A DNA stretch of 64,000 nt from the NCBI GenBank assembly GCA_001600175.1, contig BCJC01000003.1:2170001-2234000 (forward strand), read 5' to 3'. Positions 10,272 through 46,274 of the stretch are shown here, one piece after another (positions within the stretch are counted from its first letter, which is position 1; each line of letters begins with the position of its first letter). Under the pieces are notes generated by a model that was not told the origin of the DNA, ran no database searches, and worked only from the letters and a program-made list of their open reading frames with translations. Source of the stretch: Erythrobasidium yunnanense (taxonomy: Eukaryota; Basidiomycota; Cystobasidiomycetes; Erythrobasidiales; Erythrobasidiaceae). Made by a program: the position numbers and the translations under genes.

Positions 10272-11791
10272 TTGCGAGTGAATATGGGCTCAGTCAGCCC
10301 ATCTGAGAAGAATCATGCCATGCACAAGGCCCCTACGAGCTTGCTATCTCTGCCAGACGAAACGCTCGAGTTTATCGGGTATTACCTTTTCGAAAGCGAC
10401 AATGAATGCTGCCACTGCAGCGAAGGCCACATCACAACCAACTTCAAGTCCTACATACGCGTCAGCAAGCGTATCTATAGGGCTGCCTTATCTGTAGGAT
10501 GGAAGGGTAAGCTCGGACAAACTCCGCTCCTTTCGATGACCGAAACTGATGCCTTTTGGTCACTAAAGCTTGGGAGCTCTCGAGCGAGTCTTACGAACGG
10601 TTACTCCAACATAAAGACCATAAGGCTATCGTACGCTGCGTTCGGCACCTCCACGTGCCTTTCTGCGATTTACGCGGACCAGGCCTGCAGCGGCCAGGAC
10701 ATCCTCCCAATCAATACGTAGAAGAAGAGGGAACTATATTCTTGGCTCAAGAAGGCTTGCAGGATACTCCAGCTCAAGAAGATACCCCAGCTTCGAACAA
10801 TGAAGGGGAGGAACAGGAGGCTAACAAGCAAGAGAAGCAGCTAGAAACGACCGAGGAATACGATAAAGCACTCTCAGAGTGTATCGGTCTTTTCGAACGG
10901 CTGGAAAGTTTGAATATCTCCTTCTGTGACTGGACAATGCCGGCTCAGCAGACTTTGAGCGTACCGACAACGCTTTTACATGCAAGGATACAGCCGCTGC
11001 TTCCCTCCACAATACTCTCTAGCACATTCCACTTCAAGACAATCACCAGGCTATCGTTCTCGGGCATCCGCTCTCAAGAAGATCATGCACAAGTGGTTGA
11101 AAGCATCGAGGAGCATTCCCAGCTACAATATAAACTGCAGAGCCTCAGCATCATATATCGATTCGACTACCTCCTCTTCTCTATCGATCTGGCGCATATC
11201 GGAGAGGCTATCGATAATACCGTCGATGGGAAAGCTCTTTGGACCGCTGTTGGAAAGCTAGAAAAGCTGGAAAGCCTTACTATCGCATATATGCCTCAGA
11301 GGGAGCTCGATATAGACATGCTGTGGAAGCCAGAGGTGTTCAAGCCGAAACTCAAGCGGATCTGCCTGGAGGAAGTGACTCTCTCGCAAGGGGTCGTCAA
11401 GAGTCTACTTGAAAATCGACAAGGCCTGAAATCACTGGTCGCTGGTACACATCTCATTGACGGCATACGGGAACTACAAGCTACCTCCGAACAGCCCGTC
11501 ACTTTTCCTCAACTCAGCGCTTTGGAATTGTCAATGAACCGAGGAGCAGATGTTTTCGAGGCACTGACAGTCTTCACACATGCACCCGTTACGCATCTGG
11601 CTATCACGATAGCGGATCCCCGATCCTTCTTGGAACAGTATCCGGAACACAAGGCGAGGCAGAAGACGGTGAAAGTGCTTGCGCTGCATGAGATATATTC
11701 AGACGATGAAGATCATCGAATGAATGAAGTGCAGAAAGAAGAATGGATTCAGAAATATCAGGAGCTAGGCATCAAGTTAGCGATTCAATGA
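10272..11791 (+). CDS. F-box-like protein with leucine-rich C-terminal part
   Basis: Two exons (10272-10506 and 10569-11791) joined across a 62-base intron with GTAAGC donor give 485 residues. Residues about 18-80 form an F-box-like region (SLLSLPDETLEFIGYYLFE, then a conserved-looking VSKRIYRAAL), expected to bind Skp1 in an SCF ubiquitin ligase. The remainder has repeating leucine-rich segments such as LEKLESLTIAYMPQ and LKRICLEEVTL, which suggest a solenoid substrate-binding domain. Residues around 130-165 are a Glu/Gln-rich insert. Several Met codons (10272, 10284, 10320) could be the start; the first is annotated. The substrate is unknown. Confidence 0.7.
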
Positions 11792-12466: not shown

Positions 12467-15400
12467 ATGGCTCTGCATACGTTTGGGCACTCGAGCGCCC
12501 CACTTCGTCGAGTGAAAACCATCCAATTTGGCATTCTTTCGCCGGACGAGATCAAGGGACTCAGCGTAGCCAAAATCGAGTATCCAGAGACGTATGAAGA
12601 AGGAAGTCAGAAGCCGAAGATAGGTGGTCTTTCAGATACACGTCTAGGGACGATTGATAGGAACTTCAAATGCGAGACCTGCGGTGAAGGCATGGCGGAA
12701 TGTCCTGGACATTTCGGCCATCTGGAAGTGAGGCGCCGCATGACTATAGTCAGCAGAAGCTTGAGCTCATTCTCGCCGTACCGCAGCTCGCAAAAGGTGT
12801 CTATCATGTCGGTTTTCTGGGCAAGGTCAAGAAGATCCTCGAGAGTGTCTGTACCAATTGCGGCAAGCTCAAGTCTGATCCGTGCGTCTAGCATATATCT
12901 TTGATCAAGCATCATGCTGAAGTGCTTCATATCTGCAGCCGGACCGACTCTAGGATAGCAGATGCCATGCGTTTCGTCCGGGATCCGAAAAAGCGACTCA
13001 ACATCGTTCATGACATCTGCAAGGTAAATCACTTTCCATAGCTCATAACTGACGAGTTCAACCATGTTGAACTATGCTATACCTTCGCTCCTCCCAGAGT
13101 ATTCGCGTGTGTCAAGCAGATACGCCCGATAATCCGGACGAGCCTCTGCCTTTGGACGAGAACGGTCAACCCATACCCAAGCCTCAACATCATGGATGCG
13201 GACATACCCAGCCTTTGATCCGTAAAGAAGGCTTAAAGCTCATGCTAGTCAACCATAAAACGGCAGACGATGAAGAGAGTGGTTCAAAGCTCAAAACGGA
13301 AGATCGCAAGAATCTACCTGCTTCAGCATGTCTACTCATCTTCAAGAAGATTCCGGATGCAGACTTGCATATCATGGGTCTCAGCACGGATGAAGCTCGA
13401 CCGGAATGGATGATTCTCACTGTTCTTCCTGTTCCTCCGCCAGCTGTGCGCCCTAGTGTGGCTGTCGATGGAGGTACTCTGCGCGGAGAGGATGACTTGA
13501 CATACAGTGCGTATACTTGCTATGCTCTGGAAGAGCAAGCCTGATTATCCGTCAAAACAGAGTTGAGCGACATCATCAAAGCAAACCAAAATGTTCGGCG
13601 TCTCGAGCAAGAAGGTGCGCCGGCGCACGTCGTCGATGAATTCGAAACACTTCTGCAATATCATATCGCGACCTACATGGACAACGATCTTCCGGGGCAG
13701 CCTCAAGCTCTCCAAAAATCTGGCAGACCTGTCAAATCTATTCGAGCAAGACTGAAGGGCAAAGAAGGCCGGTTACGCGGGAATTTGATGGGAAAACGAG
13801 TGGATTTCTCGGCTCGTACAGTCATTACTGGTGATCCGAATCTGGACCTAGACCAAGTTGGAGTACCGCACTCCATAGCGCGCAACTTGACATATCCTGA
13901 AAGAGTAACGCCATACAATATCACCTACCTGCAGGAGCTGGTGCGAAACGGTCCGAACGAATACCCAGGTGCAAGATATGTCATTCGTGATACGGGAGAA
14001 AGGATAGATTTGCGGTACAACAAGCGAACAGATACCTTTCTACAATACGGCTGGATCGTAGAACGGCACCTGAAGGATGGCGACTATGTCCTCTTTAACC
14101 GACAACCGAGTTTGCACAAGATGTCTATGAGTACGTGAAATCGATTTGGAACGGCTTTCGATAGTGCTGATGAGCTGTATCAGTGTCTCACCGTGTCAAG
14201 CTTATGCCCTACTCTACCTTCCGCCTGAACCTTTCCGTAACTTCCCCCTATAACGCCGAGTAAGTATACGAGCATGCTGCTCGGCCTTGTTCATCTTATT
14301 GAACAATATGCTTTCTATCAAAGTTTCGACGGAGACGAAATGAACTTGCACGTCCCGCAAAGCGAAGAAACTCGAGCAGAACTCTCGCAGATAGCCTGGG
14401 TGCCGCGGCAGATCGTCTCTCCGCAGTCTAATAAGGTGAAGAATGCTCTCTGCTTCCGCCCGGTAGCAAGCTGAGTGTTTTCTGCAGCCTGTAATGGGTA
14501 TTGTACAAGACACCTTGTGTGGTACGCGAAAGCTCACCCTGCGTGATACATTTTTGGATCGCGACTTCATGCAAAATATACTGCTATGGGTAGCAGGGTG
14601 GGACGGTGTTCTGCCGCCTCCTGCTATCATCAAGCCGAAGCCACTCTGGACAGGCAAGCAGATACTGTCTATGGTGATTCCGAAGGGTGTCAACTATTTC
14701 CGACAAGATGGTTCTAGACCCGATCCTATATCGGCCAACGACAGTGGTGTCCTTATCGAAGATGGTGAAATTCTATACGGAATCATCGAGAAGAAGGCAG
14801 TCGGAGCATCCAATGGCGGTATAATCCATATCATCTTCAAGGAAAGAGGGCCTGAGATCTGTCGAGACTTCATTGGAGGAATGCAAAAGGTAGTAAACTA
14901 CTGGCTGCTGCACAATGGATTCTCGATCGGTATCGGAGATACTGTTCCTGATGGCACAACAGCGCAAAACATCCTCGATGTCGTTGCGGAAGCAAAGCGA
15001 CTTGTCAGGAATACTATTGAAGAGGCTCATCAAGATGGTCTCGAAGCCGAGCCTGGTATGACTATCCGAGAATCGTTCGAGAACAAGGTATCGAACTATC
15101 TCAACGATGCCCGTGATAAGGCTGGTAAGAACGCTCAAGAGAGTGCGAAGGACGACAACAACGTCAAGCAGATGGTAGTCGCCGGTTCAAAGGTACTTCT
15201 GCTGCCTTCTCACTCAAGTGAATCTAGCTGACTCATCATCGCGCAGGGTTCTTTCATCAATATCGCTCAAATGTCTGCATTGGTAGGACAGCAGATTGTC
15301 GAAGGAAAGCGTATTCCATACGGCTTCAAATTCCGCACTCTGCCACACTTCACAAAGGACGATTACTCGCCCGAATCTCGAGGGTTTGTCGAAAACTCCT

Positions 15401-18400
15401 ATCTACGAGGTCTTACTCCTCAGGAGTTCTACTTCCACGCTATGGGAGGACGAGAAGGTCTTATCGATACAGCTGTCAAAACAGCCGAAACTGGTTATAT
15501 CCAGCGCCGTCTGGTCAAAGCGCTCGAAGATGTTGCTGTCACGTACGATGGTACTGTGCGCAATTCTCTCGGTGATATTGTACAGTTCGTCTACGGTGAA
15601 GATGGTATGGATGGAGCTTCGGTCGAGACTCAGAATATCGAGCCTGTCCGCATGTCGCACTCGAAGTTCGAGCAGACGTTCAAGGTGGATATGATGGAGC
15701 CCGAGTGGAACTTCCGCAGAGGTGTTCTGCAAGTCGGACTGGATGAAGCGACGAAAGAAACGCAAGACTTGCTCGATGAGGAGTATCAGCAGATCTGCGA
15801 AGACAGAGACCTGCTTCGTACCTATATCTTGAAGAATGGAGACTCTTCTAAAGCTCTACCAGTCAATTTGAGACGTATCATCCAGAACGCCCAACAAATC
15901 TTCCACATCGATACCTCCAAGCCTTCCGACCTTCCCCCAGCAGACATCGTACTGTCCGTGCGAGATCTGCTCGAGCGTCTCATCGTCATTCGCGGAAAGC
16001 AAGATCGTCTCACTATTGATGCACAGAACAATGCTACCCTGCTGTTCCGGATTCTGCTCCGATCGAACCTTGCTGCAAAGCGAGTTCTGCAAGAGCATCA
16101 CCTCAACAGGGAAGCATTCGAATGGGTGCTAGGAGAGATAGAAGCCAGATTCAACCAGTCTGTGGTGCATCCCGGCGAGATGTGCGGTGTCATCGCTGCC
16201 CAGTCTATCGGAGAACCGGCTACTCAAATGACGCTCAACACTTTCCATTATGCCGGTGTGTCGTCAAAGAACGTTACACTTGGTGTACCTCGTCTTAAGG
16301 AGATCATCAACGTCGCGAGAAATATCAAGACACCCTCCCTGACCGTCTTCCTTCAGCCAGAATACAGCAAGGACACAGCTTCTGCTAAGCGTATTCAATC
16401 TATCCTTCCTCATTCTACACTCAAAACAGTCACTGCATCCACTGAGATCTTCTATGATCCAAACGTTGAGACTACTCTCATCGTGGATGACCGAGATTTC
16501 GTACATGCCTTCTTCGAGATTCCCGATCCTGAGATCGAGCAGAACATCCATAGGCAGTCTCCGTGGTTGTTACGCTTTGAGCTAGATAGGCGGAGAATGG
16601 TAGACAAGGGTTATGAGATGGGTTTCGTAGCAAGCAAGATCCAGGCCGTCTTCGAGTCAGATCTTTTCGTTATTGCTTCCGAAGATTTGGCAGAGAAGCT
16701 TGTCATTCGATGCAGAGCTCTGCAAGAGAACGACAAGGCTGCTGAAGATGAGGATGAGGATGGCGAGGTGCCAGAAGATGTCTTCCTCAAGCAGCTCGAA
16801 GCGTCGATGTTGTCGAATATCACTTTGGGTAAGCGTACTTAACAGAGTTTGTGACAACGCTGACACTCTCCATAGGTGGTGTTGAAGGTATTCAGCGTGC
16901 TTTCATTGTCGAACACAAGCGCAACCAGATCAACGAGAACGGCGAGTTCGAGCAGCTTAGCGAATGGGTTGTCGAGACAGACGGAATCAACCTCAAGAAG
17001 GTACTCACAGTAGATGGTGTCGATCCTATTCGAACGACTTCCAACAACTGTGTCGAGGTTCTCGAAGTTCTGGGTATCGAAGCTGCAAGACAATCTCTGT
17101 TGCGCGAGATGAGGCACGTCATCGAGTTTGGAGGTTCAAGTGTCAACTATAGACATTTGTCACTGCTCGTGGATGTCATGACGAACCGCGGACACCTGAT
17201 GGCTATCACTCGTCACGGTATCAACAGAGCCGATACTGGCGCGCTCATGCGATGTTCTTTCGAAGAGACGGTGGAAATTTTGATGGAAGCTGCATCTATT
17301 GGAGAACGCGACCACTGCACTGGTGTTGCAGAGAGCGTCTTGCTCGGTCAACTCGCTCCTATGGGTACCGGCTCTTTCGACATCGCGCTGGACATCGAGA
17401 TGCTCAAGGATGTGGTCGTAGATCACAGATTACCTGCACAAGGTCTGATCTACGCTCAAGATGGCTCAGCTACGCCTGGAGGTGCGATGACGCCCTATGC
17501 CGAAGCCGACTCTGGCGGTCGCACGCCCGGTCTGCACTACGACAATCTCGCTATCAATGCAAACTTCTCTCCTATCGTACAGGCAGGTGGAGATGAAGGT
17601 TCTTCGACCGTCTATGGAGGATATGGTAGCTTTACGCCGCAGAGGGGTGCGCAGAGTCCTTACGGTGCTTCGCCTGGCTACTCCATGGCCACAAGTCCAG
17701 CTGGCTACGGCTACGGTGCTTCGCCATCGTCTCCGGCATTCTATGGCCCATCGTCGAGCCCAGGATTTGTCTCTTCTCCGTTCGCAGCACGCACATCGCC
17801 TGCCCAAGTGTCAAGTCCACAGTTTAGCGTCGGGTACTCGCCGACGAGTCCAAACGCTTTTTCACCGTCTAGCCCCCGATGGTCACCTCAAGATGCGAGC
17901 CCCTCCTTCTCGCCCAATCAGGTTTCACCAGCCTTTGGCTCACCGGCATCTCCCTCTTTTTCGTAAGGGTTCCATCTCAGCTTTTTTAGCTGAAAACTGA
18001 CGAAGAAATCGGCTTCCTGTCTTTCCCACAGCCCTTCGCGATTCGCGTCGCCGTCCTCCCCCTCGTACCAGGTGATTTGAAGCGTCGGCTCGCTTTGGCA
18101 CGGAATCTGACTGTTTCTGACAGGTTACGTCGCCTGCTTACTCGCCGAACTCACCCCAATTCTCCAGCCGCATGTCAAATGGTGTCACGTCACCAAACTT
18201 CTCGTAAGTCATATGCTCTGCTATTTCCTGGAATGGCTTCTGACTCGTTTATTGCTGCGTTAGTCCGGCCAGCCCGTCCTTCAGCCCGTCTAGTCCCCAA
18301 TTCTCGTGAGTGCTTCGGCTCCGAGCTAGCTAAACTGCTTCTGACGCGTATTTTGCGCCTCTCTCGGCGAATCAGACCGAGCTCGCCTCAATACTCGCCC

Positions 18401-18532
18401 ACTAGCCCTCAAATGTCAGCAAGCGGCTTCTCACCTGCATCTCCCGCATCTCCTGCCTACTCAGCGAATTATGCCTCGCCCGCATGGAGCACGGGAGCAG
18501 CCTCTCCGAGGCAAGGGTCATGGAAGCGATGA
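12467..18532 (+). CDS. RPB1: RNA polymerase II largest subunit Rpb1
   Basis: Rightward gene with many short introns, encoding about 1,750 residues of the catalytic subunit of RNA polymerase II. The start [20 protein letters not shown] is the usual N-terminus. The clamp zinc site reads [17 protein letters not shown]. Fork and active-site regions include [20 protein letters not shown] and NADFDGDEMN; the intron 14260-14323 splits the first catalytic Asp codon. Bridge and trigger-loop sequences follow ([40 protein letters not shown]). The C-terminal domain is short and degenerate and is spread over five exons. I traced joins through the last one, which ends SPRQGSWKR at the stop 18530-18532. The core shows no frameshift or stop. 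An inverted copy of bases 16671-17106 lies just downstream at 18727-19162. Confidence 0.97.
12728..12786 (+). other. RPB1 intron 1
   Basis: This 59-base intron (GTGAGG...CCGCAG) joins FGHLE to [11 protein letters not shown], which restores the conserved His-x-Glu-Leu-Ala context after the clamp zinc site. An acceptor 30 bases earlier would insert unconserved residues, so this choice is well supported. Confidence 0.8.
14260..14323 (+). other. RPB1 intron inside the catalytic Asp codon
   Basis: A 64-base intron (GTAAGT...ATCAAAG) divides the GA|T codon of the first Asp in NADFDGDEMN, the magnesium-binding motif. Correct splicing here is essential for an active polymerase. Confidence 0.85.
16671..17106 (+). 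repeat. Left arm of a 436-base inverted duplication (inside RPB1)
   Basis: This segment of RPB1 contains the end of one exon, the 47-base intron 16829-16875 and the start of the next exon. It matches the minus strand of 18727-19162 along its whole length with no gaps and about 40 mismatches counted by hand, so roughly 91% identity. This copy is the functional one. Confidence 0.9.
17617..18532 (+). other. Degenerate RPB1 C-terminal domain, exon-modular
   Basis: After the polymerase core, the protein is Ser/Pro/Tyr/Phe-rich. Canonical YSPTSP occurs only twice (YSPTSPN, YSPTSPQ), with one YSPNSPQ; most units carry Phe in place of Tyr ([14 protein letters not shown]). Only one run, near the end, has four contiguous heptads. 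Introns at 17963-18031, 18072-18123, 18204-18263 and 18306-18375 separate the last five exons. Three of the four cut the same Ser codon after its second base (Phe-Ser|Pro), so the small exons between them can be added or lost without a frame change. The tail ends in basic QGSWKR. Confidence 0.85.
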
Positions 18533-18726
18533 TCTAGAGGGTTCTGCGTCCTTCGCAAAATCTTCTACGGCTAAAGCGAGGTTTGTCAGGCTTTCTGCGG
18601 CTAATCTCAGTGGAAGGCGGCTGTTGGGTCGCGAGGTTGTGCTGTCTTCAGGCTGTTGTGCAGGGCCACTGTGATAGGGAGCTGCAATTGGGCAATGCAT
18701 CTCCTCTTTCCCGTTCTCAGGAGCAC
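18533..18726. other. RPB1 3' flank
   Basis: This short stretch lies between the RPB1 stop and the inverted RPB1 fragment. On the minus strand the fragment's frame continues through it, but the sequence has no similarity to Rpb1 and looks like non-coding read-through. It would contain the RPB1 poly(A) site. Confidence 0.4.
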
Positions 18727-19162
18727 CGCGCAGCAGAGACTGTCTTGCAGCTTCGTTACCTAGAACTTCGAGGACTTTCGCACAGTTGTTCGAAGTTGTT
18801 CGAATAGGATCAATACCGTCTATGGTGAGGACCTTCTTGAGGTTGATTCCGTCTGTTTCGACAACCCATTCGCTGAGCTGCTCGAACTCGCCGTTCTCGT
18901 TGATCTGGTTTCTCTTGTGCTCGACGATGAAAGCACGCTGGATACCTTCAACACCACCTTTGGAGAGTGTCAGCATTGCCACAAACTCTGTCAAATGCGC
19001 TTACCCAAAGTGATGTTCGACAACATCGACGCTTCCAGCTGCTTAAGGAAGACATCTTCAGGCACTTCACCATCCTCATCCTCATCTTCAGCAGCCTTAT
19101 CGTTCTCTTGCAGACCTCTGCATCGAATGACAAGCTCCTCTGCCAGATCTTCGGAAGCAATA
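18727..19162 (-). pseudogene. Inverted truncated RPB1 fragment
   Basis: On the minus strand this segment encodes Rpb1 residues from [14 protein letters not shown] to EAARQSLLR, in two exon pieces around a retained 47-base intron that still has GT and AG ends. It equals 16671-17106 in length and aligns without gaps. By hand I count about 40 differences: 6 in the intron, and about 34 in coding sequence that change only about 7 of 129 residues. It has no start codon, no catalytic motifs and no CTD, so it cannot make a polymerase subunit. The excess of silent changes implies that the source was a functional, already diverged Rpb1 gene rather than a freshly copied neighbour. Read-through transcription from RPB1 would produce RNA complementary to the RPB1 mRNA. 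Confidence 0.9.
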
Positions 19163-19709
19163 TAACAAAAAGAAGTCATGCTCGACGACCGATGCAGGGC
19201 GTACTCACTTGGTGCTCACTGACCCTCCCGCCAATGCCACTGAGCGGGGCGTGCTGTTCATACTGCTGCTGCACATCGATCATCGTCGGCTGCCCACGGA
19301 CCCGGACCATTTTCCAGTCCAAGTGACAGTGCTCCAAAAAGACACACAGTTCAAGGGCGCTTGCTTAAGCCACACATCTTCAGCTGACATTAAGTATCTC
19401 TCGAGCCTGAGCATGCTTATAGGTTGTCAAGCGATTCCAAAGTTACGAGCTTGCGGCGAGCATTGCTTTTGGCTGTCTATGTTGTGCTACTATACAGATT
19501 GTTACCGTGTCCAATACAGGTCAAAGCTACCGACTTTTGCTAATCTTTGTCTCGCTGTTTGCCTTTTGCCTCCGTCCCAATCGCGTCAAGCTTCTTCTGC
19601 AGCACGCCTGGCTGCAAGTTGCTGGGGTCGGAACTACGGCAAGGTACATAGACTTGGCTACTGCATATGCAGAGAGGCTGTTCGTAACTGACGCGAGGTT
19701 TACGCCCAG
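19163..19709. other. Stretch without a recognisable gene
   Basis: About 550 bases between the RPB1 fragment and the next F-box-like gene. A rightward frame of 160 codons at 19209 has cysteine-rich, low-quality content and no family resemblance, so I treat it as non-coding. The promoter of the F-box-like gene must lie here. Confidence 0.4.
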
Positions 19710-20981
19710 ATGATGCTCATCACAGACCTCCCAAACGAAATTCTGGAACTCGTTTGTCGAAACTTCCTTTCCAAGTCGCTCACAGATCACAGCTACCTCT
19801 GTGAATGGCAAGTCGAGTGGAATGCTGGTCCCCAACGGGCTGTCCTGTGCTCGTTATCGAGGACTTGCAAGACCTTGTCGAAAATCGCCCTTCCACTTCT
19901 ATATGAGCAGATGTTCCATTACACGGACATGTGCAGATTCATCATGAGCGCTCCTGGACCCCAGACTGTCGCCAAGCGCATGTCCTCTGTTCGCTATCTC
20001 AGGATATCCAGCGAGGACGTGCCAGAGCAGCAGAGCCACTTATATTGGACCAGCTTACAGCTCTGCATCATGCACTGTGTCCAACTACAACACCTGCACT
20101 TCTATTATACCGGCGATTCTCTTCACTTTAGTGCAATTCTGGTTCGCCTGGCGGAGCTGCGTGCGATGCAGAAACTGCAGAGCCTTCGCCTGAGACTGGA
20201 CACAGACGACCCCGAACATACGATATTCAAGGACGTCTCTCGTTTCATAGGCTTGGAAGGACTCGGCGTGCACGCCAGCCGCAGGCCTTCGAAACATCCA
20301 CAAACGCGCCTGAAGCATTTAAAGGAGCTGGAGATCGATTGGCTAGATACTGCGGATGAAACTTACGCATGTATGGCTCTGATATGTCCAGAGAACCTCC
20401 GCAGGCTGCACATTGGGCAGTTCGATCGTAAGGAAGACGTTCCGATCCGCTCGCCCGACTCCTTCAACACCCAGATATGGCAGAATCTGCATTATATGTC
20501 CGTACAAAGTCAATCACCATTTATCCCGGTATTATTCGATGAACGCGCGGCAGTACGTTTTCCAGCCCTGCGAGAGGTACATGTCCAGCTGGCACCTAAC
20601 GCGCAGCCGAAGCAACTCTTCAAAAGTCTCCCGGCCTGCTTAACGCATCTCCACATCGACGAAATACGCGATTCGATCCAGTCACTCGGGATCATTGCTC
20701 TTATTGAGGATGCTCGTTGGTCATCCGGAGATTTGAAGAGTATAGAACTGGAGTTCGACGTATTTGATGGTGGGTGGGTATCTGTGGAGCCGTTTGTACT
20801 CGATGTCCTTCTGGTGCGCGCGGCCGAGGCGATGCAAGCTGCTGCAACGTATAATCTAGTACTCGATCCCAGCGACCTAGTTGCTGGCATACTCAACGTG
20901 ATCGCAGACGTCAACGGTCGTGACTCGGACTATTCTGAATCGTCAGACGATGCGGCAGCTGCAGCGGATGAGGAGCAATGA
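19710..20981 (+). CDS. F-box-like protein, intronless
   Basis: A single uninterrupted frame of 423 residues. The N-terminus MMLITDLPNEILELVCRNFL is a clear F-box start (Leu-Pro-x-Glu-Ile-Leu), followed by LCSLSRTCKTLSKIALPLLY, the second half of the fold. The rest is leucine-patterned (LKHLKELEIDWLD, NLRRLHIGQFD, LTHLHIDEI), as in fungal F-box proteins with irregular leucine-rich repeats. The last 30 residues are acidic with an Ala run. The expected role is substrate adaptor of an SCF ubiquitin ligase; the target is unknown. It is unlike the F-box-like protein at 10272 beyond general pattern. Confidence 0.8.
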   Translation: MMLITDLPNEILELVCRNFLSKSLTDHSYLCEWQVEWNAGPQRAVLCSLSRTCKTLSKIALPLLYEQMFHYTDMCRFIMSAPGPQTVAKRMSSVRYLRISSEDVPEQQSHLYWTSLQLCIMHCVQLQHLHFYYTGDSLHFSAILVRLAELRAMQKLQSLRLRLDTDDPEHTIFKDVSRFIGLEGLGVHASRRPSKHPQTRLKHLKELEIDWLDTADETYACMALICPENLRRLHIGQFDRKEDVPIRSPDSFNTQIWQNLHYMSVQSQSPFIPVLFDERAAVRFPALREVHVQLAPNAQPKQLFKSLPACLTHLHIDEIRDSIQSLGIIALIEDARWSSGDLKSIELEFDVFDGGWVSVEPFVLDVLLVRAAEAMQAAATYNLVLDPSDLVAGILNVIADVNGRDSDYSESSDDAAAAADEEQ

Positions 20982-31855: not shown

Positions 31856-33044
31856 CTAAGCCGACGAGGAAGGAAGGGCAGCTGAGACTGCGGATGAGAC
31901 CCCAGCGGCAATTGATGAAGTGACCCCGGCAGCTCCTGACGAAGCAGCTGAGGCGACTGAGGAGGCACCAGATGCGGCGGAGGATGTAGCCTCGGCAGCG
32001 CTGGATGCTACAGACGAGGTGGCCTCAGCGGCGGAGGAGGCGGCGGAAGATGTGGCTGCCTCGACGCTGGACATAGCGCTGGTTGGGGCAGGGGAAGGTT
32101 CACCACCAGCAGCAGATCCGCCAAGTCTGGCGGCGAAAGATCCAAGCTCGAGGCCAGCAAGGGCTGATACGAGCTGCATGCCCTCAGCCTGGCTATTGGC
32201 GCAGAAGTTGGTGAAGGTCAAGAGGGTTGTCTCGTTTCCGATCGTGCCAGTCTGGTCGAAGGTTGGGTCGTAGATGCTGAGAACGGTGGAGTAGTTCGAG
32301 ATTGAGACTCCCATAGCTGAGACTGGGCCGTTGGTCAAGTTCCAGGTCCACTGAGCAGCTCCGCTCGAGTTGGTCATCGTGGCATTGACGAGAGTCTCAA
32401 TGAGATCGACTCCTTGCCTGAAAGATAGAGGATAATCAGAAAGTGCTACGAACCTCAACGGCAGTCGAGCTCACAGGTTGATCGTGTGGGTTGCTCCAAC
32501 ATCATTTCCTCCCTCAGACGCAGTGACGTTGGGGAAGTAGGAAGAGTTGGCCCAGCTGCCAAATTGCTCAGTGACCTGAGTGACAGCTACAGGTACAGTC
32601 TGGTTGAGCTGGACGTAGGTGAGGAGGAAGCCAGTTGGGCATGGGTAGAGAGGGAACGACTGGTTGCCGGTGGTCGCGTTCGATGGAGCAGCCGTGATAG
32701 CGGCGGATGAAGCAGCAGATGATGCCAGAGACGATGCAGATTCTGTTAAGGGAGCAAAGAGAAGAAGTCAGGATCGATGAACGTCCCCGCTTGCCATTTT
32801 GGGCGAAACACTTACCAACTCCGGATGAAGCAGCTGAAGTAGCACTCTCAACAGCAGACGAAGCTGCTGATGTGACGCTCTCTACGGCAGAGCTGGCCTC
32901 GCTGGCGATGCTGCTTGGTCCTCCAACAACGGAGGAGACAGCGCCTGAGACGGCGCTCGAGATAGCGCTAGAGACCTGTCTCTGGTAGAGAGGGCCAGCT
33001 TGAACAGCGGCAACACCAGCGAATGCGAGGATAGGAGCGATCAT
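31856..33044 (-). CDS. Secreted Ser/Ala-rich glycoprotein
   Basis: Leftward gene of three exons. Residues 1-16 (MIAPILAFAGVAAVQA) are a signal peptide. A Ser/Ala/Val-rich repeat region follows (SSAISSAVSGAVSS), then a central domain of about 200 residues with many N-glycosylation sequons and Trp/Tyr/Phe residues (PLYPCPTGFLLTYVQLNQT, AQWTWNLTNGPVS, LLTFTNFCANSQAEGMQ). The C-terminal 90 residues are again imperfect Ser/Ala repeats around SSAAEATSS. It has two central Cys residues that could pair. There is no clear GPI-anchor tail, so it is probably released or wall-associated, with heavy O-mannosylation by Pmt enzymes expected. I recognise no named family. Confidence 0.75.
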
Positions 33045-33830
33045 CTTGTTTGATTTGAATCTTCTTGAGGATTTGACTTGAAGATGACCTTTTCGATGGA
33101 AGAAAGAAAAGCAAGAGAAGACACAGCCTGCGAAGTTAAGTAGTGGAGACGGGAAATAAGGAAGTGCTGCTGAAAGAGGAAGGTGCAGGCATTGAAGGTC
33201 GTCGGTGGCAAAAGTGACGTCGCGGCCCTACTCGGCGGCGGCGTCTTGGGAGGGTCCTGATTGATGCCGAAGCACCGCTTTCGGTTGATTGGTCCCCCAA
33301 GGAAATCGTGCGCGGGTGACGACTCGATGCAAACGTGCTTCCTGTTTTGCAGTGTTCCCGAGAAAGCTCTTTACGCGTCCCGTACTAAACAGAAAGTCGT
33401 TTACGCGTGCTGAAAGTTGGGTAAGTTGACTTACTGCTGCTCCTGTCATTAGCTTGTAATGCCTATCAGACTGTTAGCAATGCTCCTGGTGATTTGGGTA
33501 AAGGAACGGCTTGATTGAAGAAACGTGTATATGACTTTCGATGATATACTCAGCAGAGTAAAGATACAGATGGTGATATTGCCCGCAGTGTAGTCTGCAC
33601 AGACAAGCGTAGGGAAGTGGTACCGAAGACAAATATACGAAAAGAATAGGTCGGTAAGAAATTCGAATATTGTCCATAGCCAGGGTATGATAGAAGAGAG
33701 GGCTTGTTGCGAGTTGAGAGAAAGACCAGCATGAGTGATCTCTTGCCAGTTTGCCTCGCGCAAGAGGCCGAACGGCACCTCAGTCGAGCGCCTTCAGGTG
33801 TACGCATAGTATAGATCGAGATTGACAGTT
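33045..33830. other. Intergenic stretch with unassigned frames
   Basis: About 790 bases between the secreted-protein start and the stop of the first GH5 gene. A leftward frame at 33449-33778 (109 codons) has aromatic, hydrophobic content but no recognised family and no signal for splicing into a neighbour. The section 33045-33230 is purine-rich and probably promoter of the secreted-protein gene. Confidence 0.4.
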
Positions 33831-35721
33831 TCAGAACTGGCGAGCACGATGTTTGGTCTTGCGAGAACTTGTAGAATTGGAACCGGAGGCCCAGCTGGGC
33901 ATGGAAGGTGTTCCACAAGGGTTGCCGAGACTTTTCAGGTAGTCGAGGCTGCTCTGGCCGCCAGAAGGGAGGGGAATGACACCGTTATTCAGAAGAGTCT
34001 GTTTGATCAGACAGAAGCACCTTTCTTCAGTCCACTTTGTGTGCCGGCAGTCAATACATAGTCCGCACCTGGAAACTCCATTGTGAATTGTCTCCTCCGT
34101 TATCGGTCGGGCCTCCATTGATAGCTTTTAAGTTCCAGAAGACACCTCCTCCAGCATTGGCCCACGCAGTGAGTTGTTGGGTATAGAACTGTTTTTCGAA
34201 AGAAGCATCCTTGACACCCGTTCGAAGCGACCATTCGGTAATGGCCACTGGTACGGGATATGCTGCAAAGCTTGCTGCGCTTGAGCATACTTGTTGAAGC
34301 ATGTTGGAGGTGTCGGTCTGAAGAGGGAATGTCCCGACATAAGGATGGGTTTCCATGCTAATGTATCTGCGAGCCAAAGAGAATCAATGTGATTGGCCAC
34401 ACCTGCAAGAATCAATAAAGAAATAGTACCTCGGGTCCTTGCCCTTCACGAAAGACCTCCAATAGTCGAGGTAGCTTGTTCCTTTGAGGATTTGGTCAAC
34501 GAAACCATGATGGAATTGCAGAGGTACGGGATTGCTAAGCGCCATAGTCTTCTCATACGAGCGTTGATAGTATGCCTGAAGCATATTGATCTGTGCTTGC
34601 GTGTATGGTCGTGGCTCGTTGACTAGTCCGAGAGCCGAAACAACTGAGCGGTAAGGAGATGCTTCGATCCAGGCTGATCAGGCGGTCAGCATATGAAATA
34701 CGGCATGTTCGCTGATGCCGCAACTGACCTAGAGCTGCGGTCACAGTCGCGTCGGTTCTCTCCATGTAGTCGTCTTGGAAGAAATGAGGGTTGGCCGAGA
34801 AGACTCCGCTCGTAATTTCTCCATTCTGGGAACCAGGCAAGCCATGCAGGTCGATGACGACATACATGTTTCTCTTGTATGCCCACTCCATAGCCTGCTC
34901 AAGATAATCAAGCTGGCCCGCTTTGGCGAGGTAAGGTTCGCCGGGGATGGTATCGATAAACGCCCAGAAGCCAAGAGGAATGCGAAGCTGGTTGATGCCG
35001 GCTTGATGAGCTGTTTCGATGTCTGCCTCGGTGAAGAAGGTCGACCAGTGCTGCTGCATTGTGGAAAGAGCGTTGTCGCCCAATTCAAGCATAAGATTCC
35101 ATTCATCGATGACTGATGCATTGTTATTTGCGCTTGCGTTGAACCAGGGCTGTACCATCCATTGTTCCTACAATAATTCGTTAATTATGAGCTTGCGAGA
35201 TGAAGATGATCTGCCCGACGTACCAGAATGAGCCACGATCCCAAGGCTACCCCAATCATTGGTGCTTGTACATTTGTTGCACCAGCAGCTTCTGCTGCGA
35301 GCGCACCAGCAAGCGAGCTTTTCGTCCAGTCGTACAGAGGAAGCGGTGATACGCTCGCTTTCGCAGTCGCGGTAGACGACGAAGAAGCGGCAGTAGATGT
35401 CGCACTAGCTGCTACACCACTTGCGACATCAGCCGCGTTGGCTGCGCTACCTTGACCCAATTTCTCGTTGTTTGTTTTGTTGTTGTTGTTGTTCCTGCTG
35501 GCCAAAACACCTCCGAGAACAGCGCCGAGAATCACGAGGACAGCGAGGACACTGCCTATGATGATGTAGAGCTTCTTTCGCGAACGAGTAATACCGCCAG
35601 TAGTCGCCCGTTTCTCGTTCAAATCTGCAGTGCTGTTTTCGCCTTGCACGGTAGAGCTGGCACCAGGAAACGTCTCGGACGAAGAGTAATGGCCTTTCTG
35701 GCCAGAGTAGGGTCTCGACAT
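33831..35721 (-). CDS. Membrane-anchored exo-beta-1,3-glucanase (GH5), tandem copy A
   Basis: Leftward, five exons, about 530 residues; start ATG at 35719-35721. A cytosolic Ser-rich tail of about 50 residues is followed by one hydrophobic anchor (LYIIIGSVLAVLVILGAVLG), an Asn-rich and Ser/Thr/Ala-rich stalk, then the catalytic domain: QAPMIGVALGSWLIL, GINQLRIPLGFWAFI, YVVIDLHGLPGSQNG, acid/base Glu in LGLVNEPRPYT, HPYVGTF, nucleophile Glu in VAITEWSLRTG, and GGVFWNLKAINGG. The layout matches type II membrane glucan 1,3-beta-glucosidases (Exg2/ExgD type) that trim wall glucan at the cell surface. The C-terminus is basic (SSRKTKHRARQF). It is the downstream partner of a near-identical tandem gene at 36114-38001. 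Confidence 0.93.
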
Positions 35722-36113
35722 AATCCTTCTCCAATGTCGATGTGCTGTAATAAACAAAAAGGCCCAGGGACACCGTTTGATAGAATTTGACAGGCTATGA
35801 TACTAAAATAGACACAGCGGTACGGCCGTAAAGAAACAGTGACTTGGAAGTGGAAACGCCTTAGATGGGTGAGGGTCGACAGGTCGAGGTGTATGTACCC
35901 ATAACGTGTGCTGCTGTTCCGCAAGACTTGAAATCTCCATCGCGGGAGACGTTAGACTCGAAGCGAAGGATAATCTCGACTTCCAACTTTTGACTGCTAT
36001 GTGACAGAGCTCATGGTATAAGTAAAATAGACTTTAAGCTGAATAGAGACGATACAAGCAAGCTACGTTACACACCTGCTAAAGTGTCGCAGACAGTTTG
36101 TCAATTAGTTAGT
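35722..36113. other. Intergenic stretch between the GH5 pair
   Basis: About 390 bases that form the promoter of GH5 copy A and the 3' region of copy B. No gene or repeat stands out. Confidence 0.4.
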
Positions 36114-38001
36114 TCAAAAATGTCGAGCACGATGTTTATTCTTGCGAGACGAAGTAGTAGTGGAATTGGAGCCAGCAGCCCAGCTGACTGTTCCAGGTGT
36201 TCCACAAGGTGTACCGAGGGCTCGTAGATAGTCGATATCGCTCTGACCGCTCGAGGGCATAGGGATGACACCTCGTTCCAGTAGACCCTGTAAGCCAGAC
36301 AGTCTCAGTAAGCGAGTCTCGGTACTTATGGCTGCTGCAAGGACTCACCAGGAAGCTCCACTGCGTGTTATCTCCTCCATTATTGGACGCGCTTCCGTTC
36401 ACGGCTTTCAAGTTCCAGAATATACCACCTCCCGTATTACTCCAAGCAGTGACTTGTTGAGTGTATAGCTGTCGTTCGAAAGATGGGTCATTGACACCTG
36501 TTCGCAGAGACCATTCCGTGACGACTACAGGAACGGGGTATCCTTCGTAATTTGCGGCATTGTCGCATACTTGTTTGAGCATGTCGGATGTGTTGTTCTG
36601 GAGAGGGAAAGTGCCGACGTAGGGGTGCGATTCCAAGCTGATGTATCTGAAATTCACGGAAAGTCAGCTGTATGCTACGAACTCGAATGTACATATGGTC
36701 AAATAGTACCTCGGGTCTTTGCCTTCTACGAAAGGCCTCCAGTAGTCCAGATAGGTTACATTGAGGATCTGATTGACGAAACCATGGTGGAATTGGATGG
36801 GGACAGGGTTGCTGAGCGCAACAGATTTGTCGTAAGAGCGTTGATAGAAAGCTTGAAGCATGTCGAGCTGTGCTTGGGTATATGGACGTGGTTCATTAGC
36901 TACACCGAGAGCTGAGACGGCGGAGCGATAGGGAGATGCCTCGATCCAGGCTGGACACGCAAACAGTTAGTCACAGCTATCAAGCAATCAAGCAATCAGA
37001 ACGGTTTGTTACTCACCCAAAGCTGCATCGACTGTGGCATCCGCTCTGGCCATGTATGCATCCGTGAAGAATCGCGGATCTGTCGTATGTACCCCGCTTG
37101 TGATCTCTCCATTCTGGGATCCCGGCAGGCCATGCAGGTCCACAATAACATACATGTTCCTCTTGTATGCCCACTCCATAGCCTGTTCAAGGTAGTCGAG
37201 CTGGCCTGCTTTGCTGAGATACGGCTCGCCAGCGATCGTATCGATGAATGCCCAGAAGCCGAGAGGGACACGGAGGTGGTTGATTCCAGCTTGATGAGCG
37301 GCTTCGATGTCGGCTTCGGTGAAGAATGTAGACCAGTGCTGTTGCATCGTCTCGAGAGCCTTGTCGCCTAGCTGAAGCATGAGATTCCATTCGTCAATGA
37401 CAGAGGCATTGTTGTTCGCGCTTGCATTGAACCAAGGCTCGACCATCCATTGCTCCTGCACTCGAGAAATCCGTCAGTCGCCAAGGCTGCTTCGATGGGG
37501 ACTGCCCAAACATACCAGAATGAGCCATGAACCCAACGCTACACCCATCATTGGCGCCTGGACATTCGTACTTCCAGCTTCGACTTCTGAAAGCACACCC
37601 GCCAACGAGGTGCGCGTCCAGTCGTACGTAGGAAGGGGTGACACGCTTGCCCGAGGAGTTGCTGTAGAAGCGGGCGTGGGCGTGACGGTCGTGGCTTGTC
37701 CATTTGGTAAAGTAGTGGTGAATGGGACTACGTTTGCTTCGCCTCCATTGCTGGATTGCTTGTCATTATTGCTGCTGCTGTTCCTGCTGCCTAAGACGCC
37801 TCCTAGGACAGCACCGAGAATGACGAGCACACCGATGATACTGCCTAGGATGATGTATAGCTTCTTTCGCGAATGAGTACCACCGCTTGGAATGGCGCGT
37901 TTCTCGTTCAAATTGGCTGTACTGTCGCCTTGCATAGTAGAGGCTCCAGGAAAGGTTTCAGACGAAGAATGGCCTGCCTGGCCAGCGTAGTATCTTGACA
38001 T
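36114..38001 (-). CDS. Membrane-anchored exo-beta-1,3-glucanase (GH5), tandem copy B
   Basis: Leftward, five exons, about 530 residues; start ATG at 37999-38001. Same architecture as copy A: Ser-rich cytosolic tail, anchor LYIILGSIIGVLVILGAVLG, Ser/Thr stalk, GH5 domain with acid/base Glu in LGVANEPRPYT and nucleophile Glu in VVVTEWSLRTG. Intron positions match copy A. The last exon must be read after its intron (GLLERGVIPMPSSGQSDID...) to end SSRKNKHRARHF at the stop 36114-36116; reading through the intron gives a false C-terminus. The stalk has diverged far more than the catalytic domain. Both copies look intact. Confidence 0.93.
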
Positions 38002-38334
38002 GGTCGTTCTTGGCTGTGAGGAAAGAGTAGAGAAGAGACAAGGGTGTCGAGCGGCCTTGGAAATTCAGATGGCTGCGGGTGACACGCGCCCAGGCGGATC
38101 ACCAAACACTTGACGATGCGGAAAAGAAGGTGGTCTGTAAGGAGCGATGGGTAGAACAGCCAGATGAGACGTCAATGTGAATGTGAACCAGGTGGACTGA
38201 TATTGGTTGAGTTGTTGGGAGAGCGAAGAAGAAGAAGAGGGTCGGCTTTGACACCTCCTAACCGATAAATCGGAGTTTGACTTTCATATTTTGGCTGATG
38301 GGATGCAACACAAGCTATATACACACTCGCTAAC
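38002..38334. promoter_or_regulatory. Divergent promoter region
   Basis: About 330 bases lie between the starts of GH5 copy B (leftward) and the auxin-efflux-type carrier (rightward). No specific elements were identified. Confidence 0.4.
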
Positions 38335-43379: not shown

Positions 43380-44607
43380 ATGGCCTCCGCAAAGTCATCT
43401 CGACGCAACAGCCAAGTCTCCAGAGCTCCTACTCGTTCGGGGTCTGTCAGTTCAAAGTCTTCATCTGACTCCAGTAGCACTAGCAGCAGTGCGTCCTCGA
43501 CCTCCAAGGCCTCTTCGCGATGTAGGTGCCAACTTTGCTTGTGAATGTGCGCGATGATCGACTGACATGCGCTATCTCACAGCACCTTCCATGGTATCTG
43601 TTGAGTCGGGAGTCATCGACGATCTGATACGAAGGCAAGTTCGATATGCAGACAAGCCAGATGGACTTCCGACTGGTCTCTTCGGCCTGAGACGCGACTC
43701 TTGGGACTCCTTCACATCTGACAACTCGGTCGACTTGACTTCACATCGATTGAAGGCTCGTCATCACTTGGAAGAATCTTATCAGCGTAAACTGACACCA
43801 GCACTACAAAAGACCATGCAAGCATTTGCACCTCAAGACAAGTCTGCGATGCATCTGGTAGACTTGCGGAACACGCCGAAGTCACCTGGTCAAGGTATAG
43901 ACAATCTGAGGTACTTCTCTGATAATAGCAAGGCAAGATTCACCAGAACTGTGACCAAGCGCAACTGCGTTATCGATAGCGACGGGCGCGCCGCAGCCCG
44001 GCTAGACCTCAACTCAGGAGCTAGAGACAAATATCGGATCGCAAGCATTAGACACTGCAAGAGTGCATTCCACCTTGGGGAAGAATCCCTTTTCGACAGC
44101 ATACAGAAGCCTGCAAAGTTTGTCCATAATGTCAGGAAAGCCATTCCTGACATCCTCAAGACACAGGAGGCTGGCCTCAAAGGAAGAGGGATAGGTGGCC
44201 GCGAAGCTGGTATCAAGAGCAAGTCCCGTTACGACAGACAACCTAACGCAACAGAGCATAAGCAGGAGCTCAAGACGATCTACAATGCTCCCGCCATCAA
44301 GCTCACTGACAAAGAGACGTACGATCTTGATGAAGACGATAAGCCCTACGGCATCAAAGATGCCAAGGTGATGCAGAATCTGGAAAAATTCCGCAAAGGA
44401 AAAGCTGTCGCTGGCGAAGACTATGAAGAGACTCTGCAAAACACTGGTTCTAAGATTGTCAGAAGCACCGAGCACGTTGCGGTCGATCAGTCTATGAACG
44501 CAAGCGCCGTCATCCTCGATGCCATTCGAATCGCAAACAGAGCCGGTGCAGGCGACAAACGTAGTTCGCGACCTCACAAGGCAAGAGTCAGCTCTACTGC
44601 ATCGTAG
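43380..44607 (+). CDS. Unrecognised family protein, tandem copy A
   Basis: Two exons (43380-43521, 43583-44607) joined across a 61-base intron, 388 residues. The N-terminus is a Ser/Lys/Arg-rich low-complexity stretch (SSKSSSDSSSTSSSASS). The rest is charged, helical and without membrane segments or signal peptide. A block RRDSWDSFTSDNSVDL followed by HHLEESYQRKLTPALQKTMQ is conserved in the neighbouring paralogue, as are ESLFDSIQKPAKFVHNVRKA and AGEDYEETLQNTGSKIVR. I recognise no domain. It probably acts inside the cell, perhaps in the nucleus given its basic N-terminus, but that is inference. It is divergent from PEX3. Confidence 0.8.
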
Positions 44608-45076: not shown

Positions 45077-46274
45077 ATGGTCTACGCAAGCTTGTCCCGA
45101 TGCGACAGCGCACCCGCCAGACCGTCGATCCGTTCGGGACCTGTGAACTCACATTCTCCAGCGGGCAGTTGCGCTTCCTCCAGGACATCTTCACGATGTA
45201 GGTGCAGCACCTGACATGACTAAGTACATAGACTGATATCACGCCAGCTTCCTCCATTGTCTCTGTCGGGTCAGGTGTCATCGAAAACTTTCTGGGCGCA
45301 CACGTCCGAAATGCAGCTGTGCCAGACGGACCCGTGACTGCCCCTTGGGGTGGAAGACGGAACTCCTGGGATTCCAATACATCTGACTGCAAAGTAGACT
45401 TGACGGCACAAAGACTCAAAGCTACTCATCGCACGCATGAAGACTACCAGCGCAAGTATACGCGAGAACTAGACGCTTCACTGCAAGCCTTGGCTCCTAG
45501 ACGCAAGCGTGAATCATATCTCCCGTTTCTTCACATACGGCATTCACCAAAGTCATGCGCAAAGCCAGTTGACGATCTTGAATACCTTGAGTTGAACGGC
45601 AAGGCTATCATACGCAGGACTCTGACTCAGCGCAAACGCGTCAGCGATGGTGCTGAGGCCGTAGCTCGCGCCTTTAAGCTACTGCCCGGTACGAAGGACT
45701 CTTACCCAAAGTAGATTCTTCGAGGCACTACAAGCAGCGCGAACATGCCGGTGACAGAAGCCTCTTCGAAAGCCTCGATAAGCCCGAGGAATTCGTCAAC
45801 AACGTTCGCAAAGCCGTTCCTCTTGTCCTCGAATCAGACTCTGTTGGCTTCAACGGAAAAGGCTGCAAGGGCGTGTCCGCTGGGCTCGCCAGCACATCGT
45901 GTTCCTCGGGGAGCAGAAAGCCTGACGCAACTGAGGGGTTGAGCACGGACTCGGATATTCCTTTCAAGGTCAAAGAGAGATATCATCTTGCAGATCAGGA
46001 TGAATCTGCTCCGCTCAAATGTGCAGCGATTCGACAAAGGTGGCAACGTGGCCGCCTAAGCAGGCATACGGCGGGTGAGGACTACAACGAGATTCTGCAA
46101 AATCGGGGAAATCGGATTGAAAGGCAGACTGAACACTACGCTACGACTGGCAAGTCAGGAGCGAGCACTCGTTCCATCGGCTCGGTGCGAGCTGCACTTG
46201 ATGCGAGGGAGAGCAAGAGAGACCATGCAACCAGCAAGAAGAAGGAGATCGCAAAGCCTGCTCAACCCCACTAA
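45077..46274 (+). pseudogene. Unrecognised family protein, tandem copy B, probably damaged
   Basis: Homologue of the gene at 43380, with the same small first exon and an intron at the same site. Shared blocks include RRNSWDSNTSDCKVDL, DYQRKYTRELDASLQALAP, SLFESLDKPEEFVNNVRKA and AGEDYNEILQNRGNRIER. The first part runs into a stop at about 45713-45715 (after DSYPK), while the homologous continuation (SSRHYKQREHAGDRSLFES) is in another frame and too close for an intron. That implies one frameshift: pseudogenisation or a sequence error. The middle third is more diverged than the ends. If the shift is an error, the protein would be about 370 residues. Confidence 0.65.

Follow-up and report, generated by a model that had tools for sequence, protein, structure and literature searches.

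A Diverged, Inverted RPB1 Fragment beside RPB1 as a Candidate Relic of a Second RPB1 Lineage

Results

The RPB1 Gene and Its Inverted Fragment

The window, which is the whole 64 kb stretch of DNA that was analyzed, contains the gene for the largest subunit of RNA polymerase II (RPB1) and, beyond its stop codon, a short inverted copy of part of the same gene. The features of this locus are as follows.

12467–18532, plus strand: RPB1, RNA polymerase II largest subunit, ATG at 12467 and TGA at 18530–18532
16671–17106, plus strand: RPB1 arm, end of Rpb1 domain 7 and part of domain 5, containing the intron at 16829–16875
17963–18031, 18072–18123, 18204–18263, and 18306–18375, plus strand: introns at the CTD end, positions assigned manually on the basis of splice signals and reading frame
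18533–18726, no strand: spacer of 194 nt from the RPB1 stop to the fragment, no RPB1 remnant detected
18727–19162, minus strand: inverted RPB1 fragment, 436 nt without gaps, 40 mismatches to RPB1
18958–19004, minus strand: fragment intron, 47 nt, GT...AAG, six differences from the RPB1 intron
18518–19179, minus strand: spliced ORF of 204 aa, with an ATG at 19179 in the flank, 129 Rpb1-like codons, and about 68 unrelated codons
19163–19189, minus strand: probable outer flank homology to RPB1 16648–16670, from an anchored gapped extension

In a scan of Pfam Rpb1 domains 4–7, the parent gene was found to match domains 4, 5, 6, and 7, and it carries a CTD with YSPTSPx-like repeats, as expected of an RNA polymerase II largest subunit. 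Among solved structures, the parent stretch is matched best by 3h0g_A rpb1 (E = 6.5e-96), which we take to be the S. pombe protein. Once spliced, the approximately 1000 C-terminal residues encoded by 15232–18532 read open to the TGA at 18530–18532. The TAA at 17964–17966 was rejected as the stop codon of RPB1; in our reading it is intronic, and the CTD runs on through four further exons. Five RPB1 introns were placed, including the one within the parent arm, and those of the N-terminal part were placed only partly. The CTD, encoded by 17500–18532, is strongly degenerate, with two exact YSPTSP units and seven [YF]SP[TSA]SP units in total, and its coding region is interrupted by the four short introns listed above. 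A 12-residue stretch past the core is presumably Basidiomycota-like; together with the shortness of the introns and the S. pombe match, it marks the gene as probably fungal.

A repeat search returned the pair 16671–17106 and 18727–19162 (436 nt, 91% identity, separated by 1620 nt); of the repeats reported in the window with arms of 40 nt or longer, this is the sole inverted one. These are the same arms that had been named in a preliminary description of the sequence as a gap-free reverse-complement copy, and its hand count of about 40 mismatches became exactly 40, with zero gaps, when counted by script. The blastn match between the fragment and the RPB1 arm has an E value of 5e-175, by which chance was rejected as its origin; the match was extended by blastn to 18727–19173 against 16662–17106. 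The fragment holds Pfam positions 85–135 of 136 in domain 7, presumably the jaw, and positions 150–220 of 267 in domain 5, and thus both domains are cut. It is a truncated copy that has kept the parental intron, as gene-fragment pseudogenes do.

The intron begins with GT and ends with AG in both copies, as first described; to this we add that the acceptor of the fragment is AAG, which is off consensus, whereas all five of the placed RPB1 introns end in TAG or CAG. The reading frame of the fragment is open. The 3′ end of the 204-aa ORF overlaps the end of RPB1 in antisense. When 20000 positions were drawn at random from the window, on either strand, 16% of them had a frame open for 69 codons.

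Edges and Flanks of the Fragment

Beyond the outer end of the fragment, the gapped extension covers 28 columns with 20 matches, two mismatches, and four short gaps, and joins 23 nt of RPB1 to 27 nt of flank. Its score was equaled by 3 of 300 shuffles and by 2 of 1500 real positions in the window. The RPB1 homology at 19163–19189 is probably, though not certainly, real. Four gaps within about 23 nt of flank stand against none in the 436 nt of the fragment (Fisher 5e-6), a post hoc comparison that is valid only if the flank is homologous. Past the inner end of the fragment, the extension score for RPB1 homology is zero; six bases match exactly at this end, which could leave room for a short priming match. 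Apart from 19163–19189, DNA local alignment against shuffles detected no RPB1 remnant in 18533–18726 or 19163–19709, and a tblastn search of both flanks with the C-terminal 1000 residues of Rpb1 gave a best E value of 1.4. Transposon capture was also considered. In a raw listing of repeats of 10 nt or more in 18400–19800, all are 24 nt or shorter and none abuts the fragment.

Substitution Pattern and Simulations

Across the 129 codons of the fragment, 34 nucleotide differences from RPB1 lead to only seven residue differences. The differences fall mainly at third codon positions (24), with seven at first and three at second positions. The fourfold sites differ at 11 of 52 and the intron at 6 of 47 bases. 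The script thus reproduced the coding and intron counts of the preliminary description, which had also proposed that dN/dS be computed; by the method of Nei and Gojobori, dN is 0.027 and dS is 0.38, for a ratio of 0.07. The 40 mismatches as a whole consist of 29 transitions and 11 transversions. Of these, 17 fall within the 106 nt at the end near RPB1 (18727–18832), versus 23 in the remaining 330 nt (18833–19162; p = 0.011, post hoc), and the counts by quarters are 7, 9, 7, and 17. Partial gene conversion might account for this higher density.

The divergence was simulated for a copy that is neutral from birth, assuming equal time on both branches, zero accepted residue changes in RPB1, and a transition bias of 5. 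Among 6000 runs, 2027 matched the fragment in having 32–36 coding differences, and none of these had seven or fewer residue changes (mean 18, minimum 10). No stop codon appeared in 43% of these matched runs, and an open frame alone is therefore weak evidence. Two further models were found to fit. In the first, in which the sequence is functional and then neutral, 59 of 6000 draws were accepted and the neutral share has a median of 0.20 (range of 0.07–0.47). In the second, with constant constraint, 71 of 6000 draws were accepted and the omega of the fragment is 0.22 (range of 0.11–0.45). The simulation data alone do not separate these two models.

Codon Use and Residue Polarity

The codon adaptation of the fragment is 0.846, and that of the corresponding RPB1 stretch is 0.830. 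Neutral silent drift lowered this value to 0.81 after 13 changes and to 0.80 after 26 changes, and the value of the fragment was attained in 2 of 2000 runs in each case. Where the two copies differ silently, the fragment carries the commoner codon in 15 of 23. Three further codon tables were used: with that from the remainder of RPB1, the value of the fragment was attained in 4 of 1000 runs; with that from other predicted exons, in 7; and with that from Pfam-supported ORFs, which takes in some unspliced intron, in 76. With a GC bias of 1.5, these counts become 0, 12, and 93, respectively. The silent changes have left the codon use of the fragment uneroded, which is clear by two of the further tables and weak by the third.

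The side on which each residue changed was read from five displayed alignments of 113 matched solved Rpb1 sequences. We take the first two to be from S. pombe and K. phaffii and the other three, nearly identical to one another, to be mammal-like. Six of the seven residue changes (K9E, V98I, V101I, V112A, E113K, and I120N) lie on the fragment side, and position 16 has no polarity. The RPB1 state at K9, V101, V112, E113, and I120 is present in all five displayed sequences, whereas that at V98 is common to the first two only. V98I and V101I are mild swaps; K9E, V112A, E113K, and I120N alter residues kept in all five. Residue polarity, the partial domains, and the weaker acceptor together suggest that function was lost rather than retained.

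Discussion

In this report, we describe a diverged piece of RPB1 that lies inverted beside the gene itself. It is most likely that the fragment evolved within a working RPB1 for approximately 80% of its separate history (53–93% under the switch model) and decayed after it was stranded. The core of the earlier reading, by which most of the divergence arose under Rpb1-type purifying selection, is supported by the simulations and by the undecayed codon adaptation, and the sources named with it (another allele, a lost paralogue, or a hybrid parent) are candidates; the silent bias would also be expected if the fragment were itself a constrained small gene, which is the less likely case.

The balance of probability leans toward the fragment being a nonfunctional relic of a second RPB1 lineage, an explanation in which the two haplotypes and the repair route are what we infer. 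Two versions of RPB1, either the alleles of diverged haplotypes or homeologues, would have diverged to a dS of about 0.38 while both were working. One nucleus would then have contained both, and a break or stalled fork would have arisen just past the RPB1 stop. Repair by local fold-back or template switch would have inserted a short inverted copy running from domain 7 into domain 5, after which the copy may have decayed for roughly one fifth of its separate history. Since fold-back copies the resident gene, the divergence requires either that the other haplotype served as the template or that the resident RPB1 was copied and was afterwards replaced by that of the other haplotype. Either route would require two diverged RPB1 versions within one nucleus. 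Random insertion at a distance of only 194 nt from RPB1 would be very unlikely.

The explanation as a relic is supported by the dN/dS of 0.07, the simulations, the residue polarity, the codon adaptation, the off-consensus acceptor, the cut domains, and the placement. On the other side, the gap contrast at the flank is, if the flank is homologous, better fitted by an older copy that was constrained on the inside than by a short period of neutral decay, unless the junction was complex initially. The codon result is weak with the Pfam-supported ORFs alone (76/1000), the denser mismatches in the last 106 nt are not predicted by the model, and two of the six polarized changes are only mild V to I swaps. 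The second RPB1 lineage is a candidate. The matches listed from genome contigs include no eukaryotic relatives and three weak bacterial ones (23–25% identity), and a scan of viral sequences gave zero matches.

An ordinary pseudogene, copied from the resident RPB1 and decaying ever since, would be the simplest source of a neighboring copy, but none of the 2027 matched simulations came down to the seven residue changes found, the lowest value being 10. Such a neutral local duplicate was rejected under equal clocks, could be rescued only if silent change had run much faster in RPB1 alone, and is in our judgment extremely unlikely. Purifying selection could have acted on a full inverted duplicate of RPB1, arranged tail to tail, that was long functional and was then deleted down to a remnant. 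Such a lost paralogue would account for the place, the inverted orientation, and the silent bias together. However, besides 19163–19189 the flanks hold no clear RPB1 remnant although the neutral phase would have been short, and about 5.5 kb must have vanished without a single indel in 436 nt; we regard this as unlikely. The selection could also have acted on the fragment itself, as a local inverted duplication whose 204-aa spliced ORF is under purifying selection of its own. The hypothetical product would join the jaw end of Rpb1 and part of domain 5 to a new tail, and it could perhaps work as a decoy toward RNA polymerase II partners, for example those of the Rpb1 jaw. The open frame, the in-frame ATG at 19179, the absence of indels in 436 nt, and the fit of the constrained model (omega of about 0.22, 0.11–0.45; 71 of 6000 draws) are in agreement with a functional small gene, and the gap contrast between the fragment and the outer flank is, provided that the flank is truly homologous, the best point in its favor, for which a complex repair junction is the alternative. 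This gene would nevertheless consist of portions of only two domains, with four nonconservative changes at residues common to the five Rpb1 alignments shown, a splice acceptor off consensus, and an open tail of a length that is ordinary (16% of positions), and we think its existence quite unlikely.

A divergence with a dS of approximately 0.38 is of the size expected between species, and an RPB1 piece from a second species or nucleus could have been joined at this site in the assembly or sample. For this, false joins would have had to arise twice, independently, in the space of about 470 nt. Amplification chimeras are not known to go back to unique sequence. An artifact of this kind is decidedly improbable. 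An effect at the level of RNA may also be imagined, in which read-through RPB1 RNA would form a hairpin of 436 bp that tunes RPB1, as the antisense position of the fragment 194 nt beyond the RPB1 stop would allow. The transitions compatible with wobble pairing number 18 versus 11 (p = 0.26), without a clear sign that pairing is kept up, and we hold this form of control to be highly improbable. A staggered-break inversion of the 1620-nt spacer was rejected by reasoning, as the ancestral CTD would be reversed.

The fragment resembles an unprocessed partial gene duplicate in that it keeps its intron, is truncated, adjoins its parent, and has changes at conserved residues. It differs in that its divergence is overwhelmingly silent, and most of this divergence therefore seems older than the loss of function. 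In a human set of fold-back inverted duplications, the unduplicated spacers range from 766 to 70,466 bp (PMC3907307). The inverted copy and the kilobase-sized unduplicated spacer (1620 nt here) are similar to these, whereas the fragment is only 436 nt, is neither large nor terminal, and has already diverged. A homeologue remnant in a hybrid fungus, for example Pichia sorbitophila (PMC3284337), is alike in having two gene lineages per nucleus with one lost later; it differs in that a single short inverted piece is found here, in a fungus that is only a candidate hybrid. No inverted RPB1 fragment was found among the titles and abstract openings listed in searches of open-licence literature. If the fragment is indeed a relic, a piece of 436 nt beside an essential gene would record two strongly diverged RPB1 versions in one nucleus, and would be evidence, missed by a tree of one gene, of hybridization or of haplotypes maintained over a long time. 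Fungal phylogenetics uses RPB1 as a standard marker, and a second RPB1 fragment that can be amplified could mislead barcoding.

The genes on either side (10550–11788 and 19710–20978) were rejected as paralogues of one another (best BLASTP E = 1.4), and neither has a Pfam match. As regards linkage to a mating-type locus, no pheromone-receptor or homeodomain match was found in the 27 Pfam-scanned ORFs of 82 kept (RPB1 and fragment ORFs excluded), and no RNA families at gathering scores and no tRNAs were found in the window. Open frames of low complexity, rich in Ala, Asp, Glu, and Thr, occupy 31860–32973, and a weak direct repeat is present at 43580–43765 and 45245–45430 (67% over 190 columns, E = 1e-5). 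The window also contains a tandem gene pair at 33830–38010, which is approximately 71% identical over 1.9 kb and whose scanned copy matches glycosyl hydrolase family 5.
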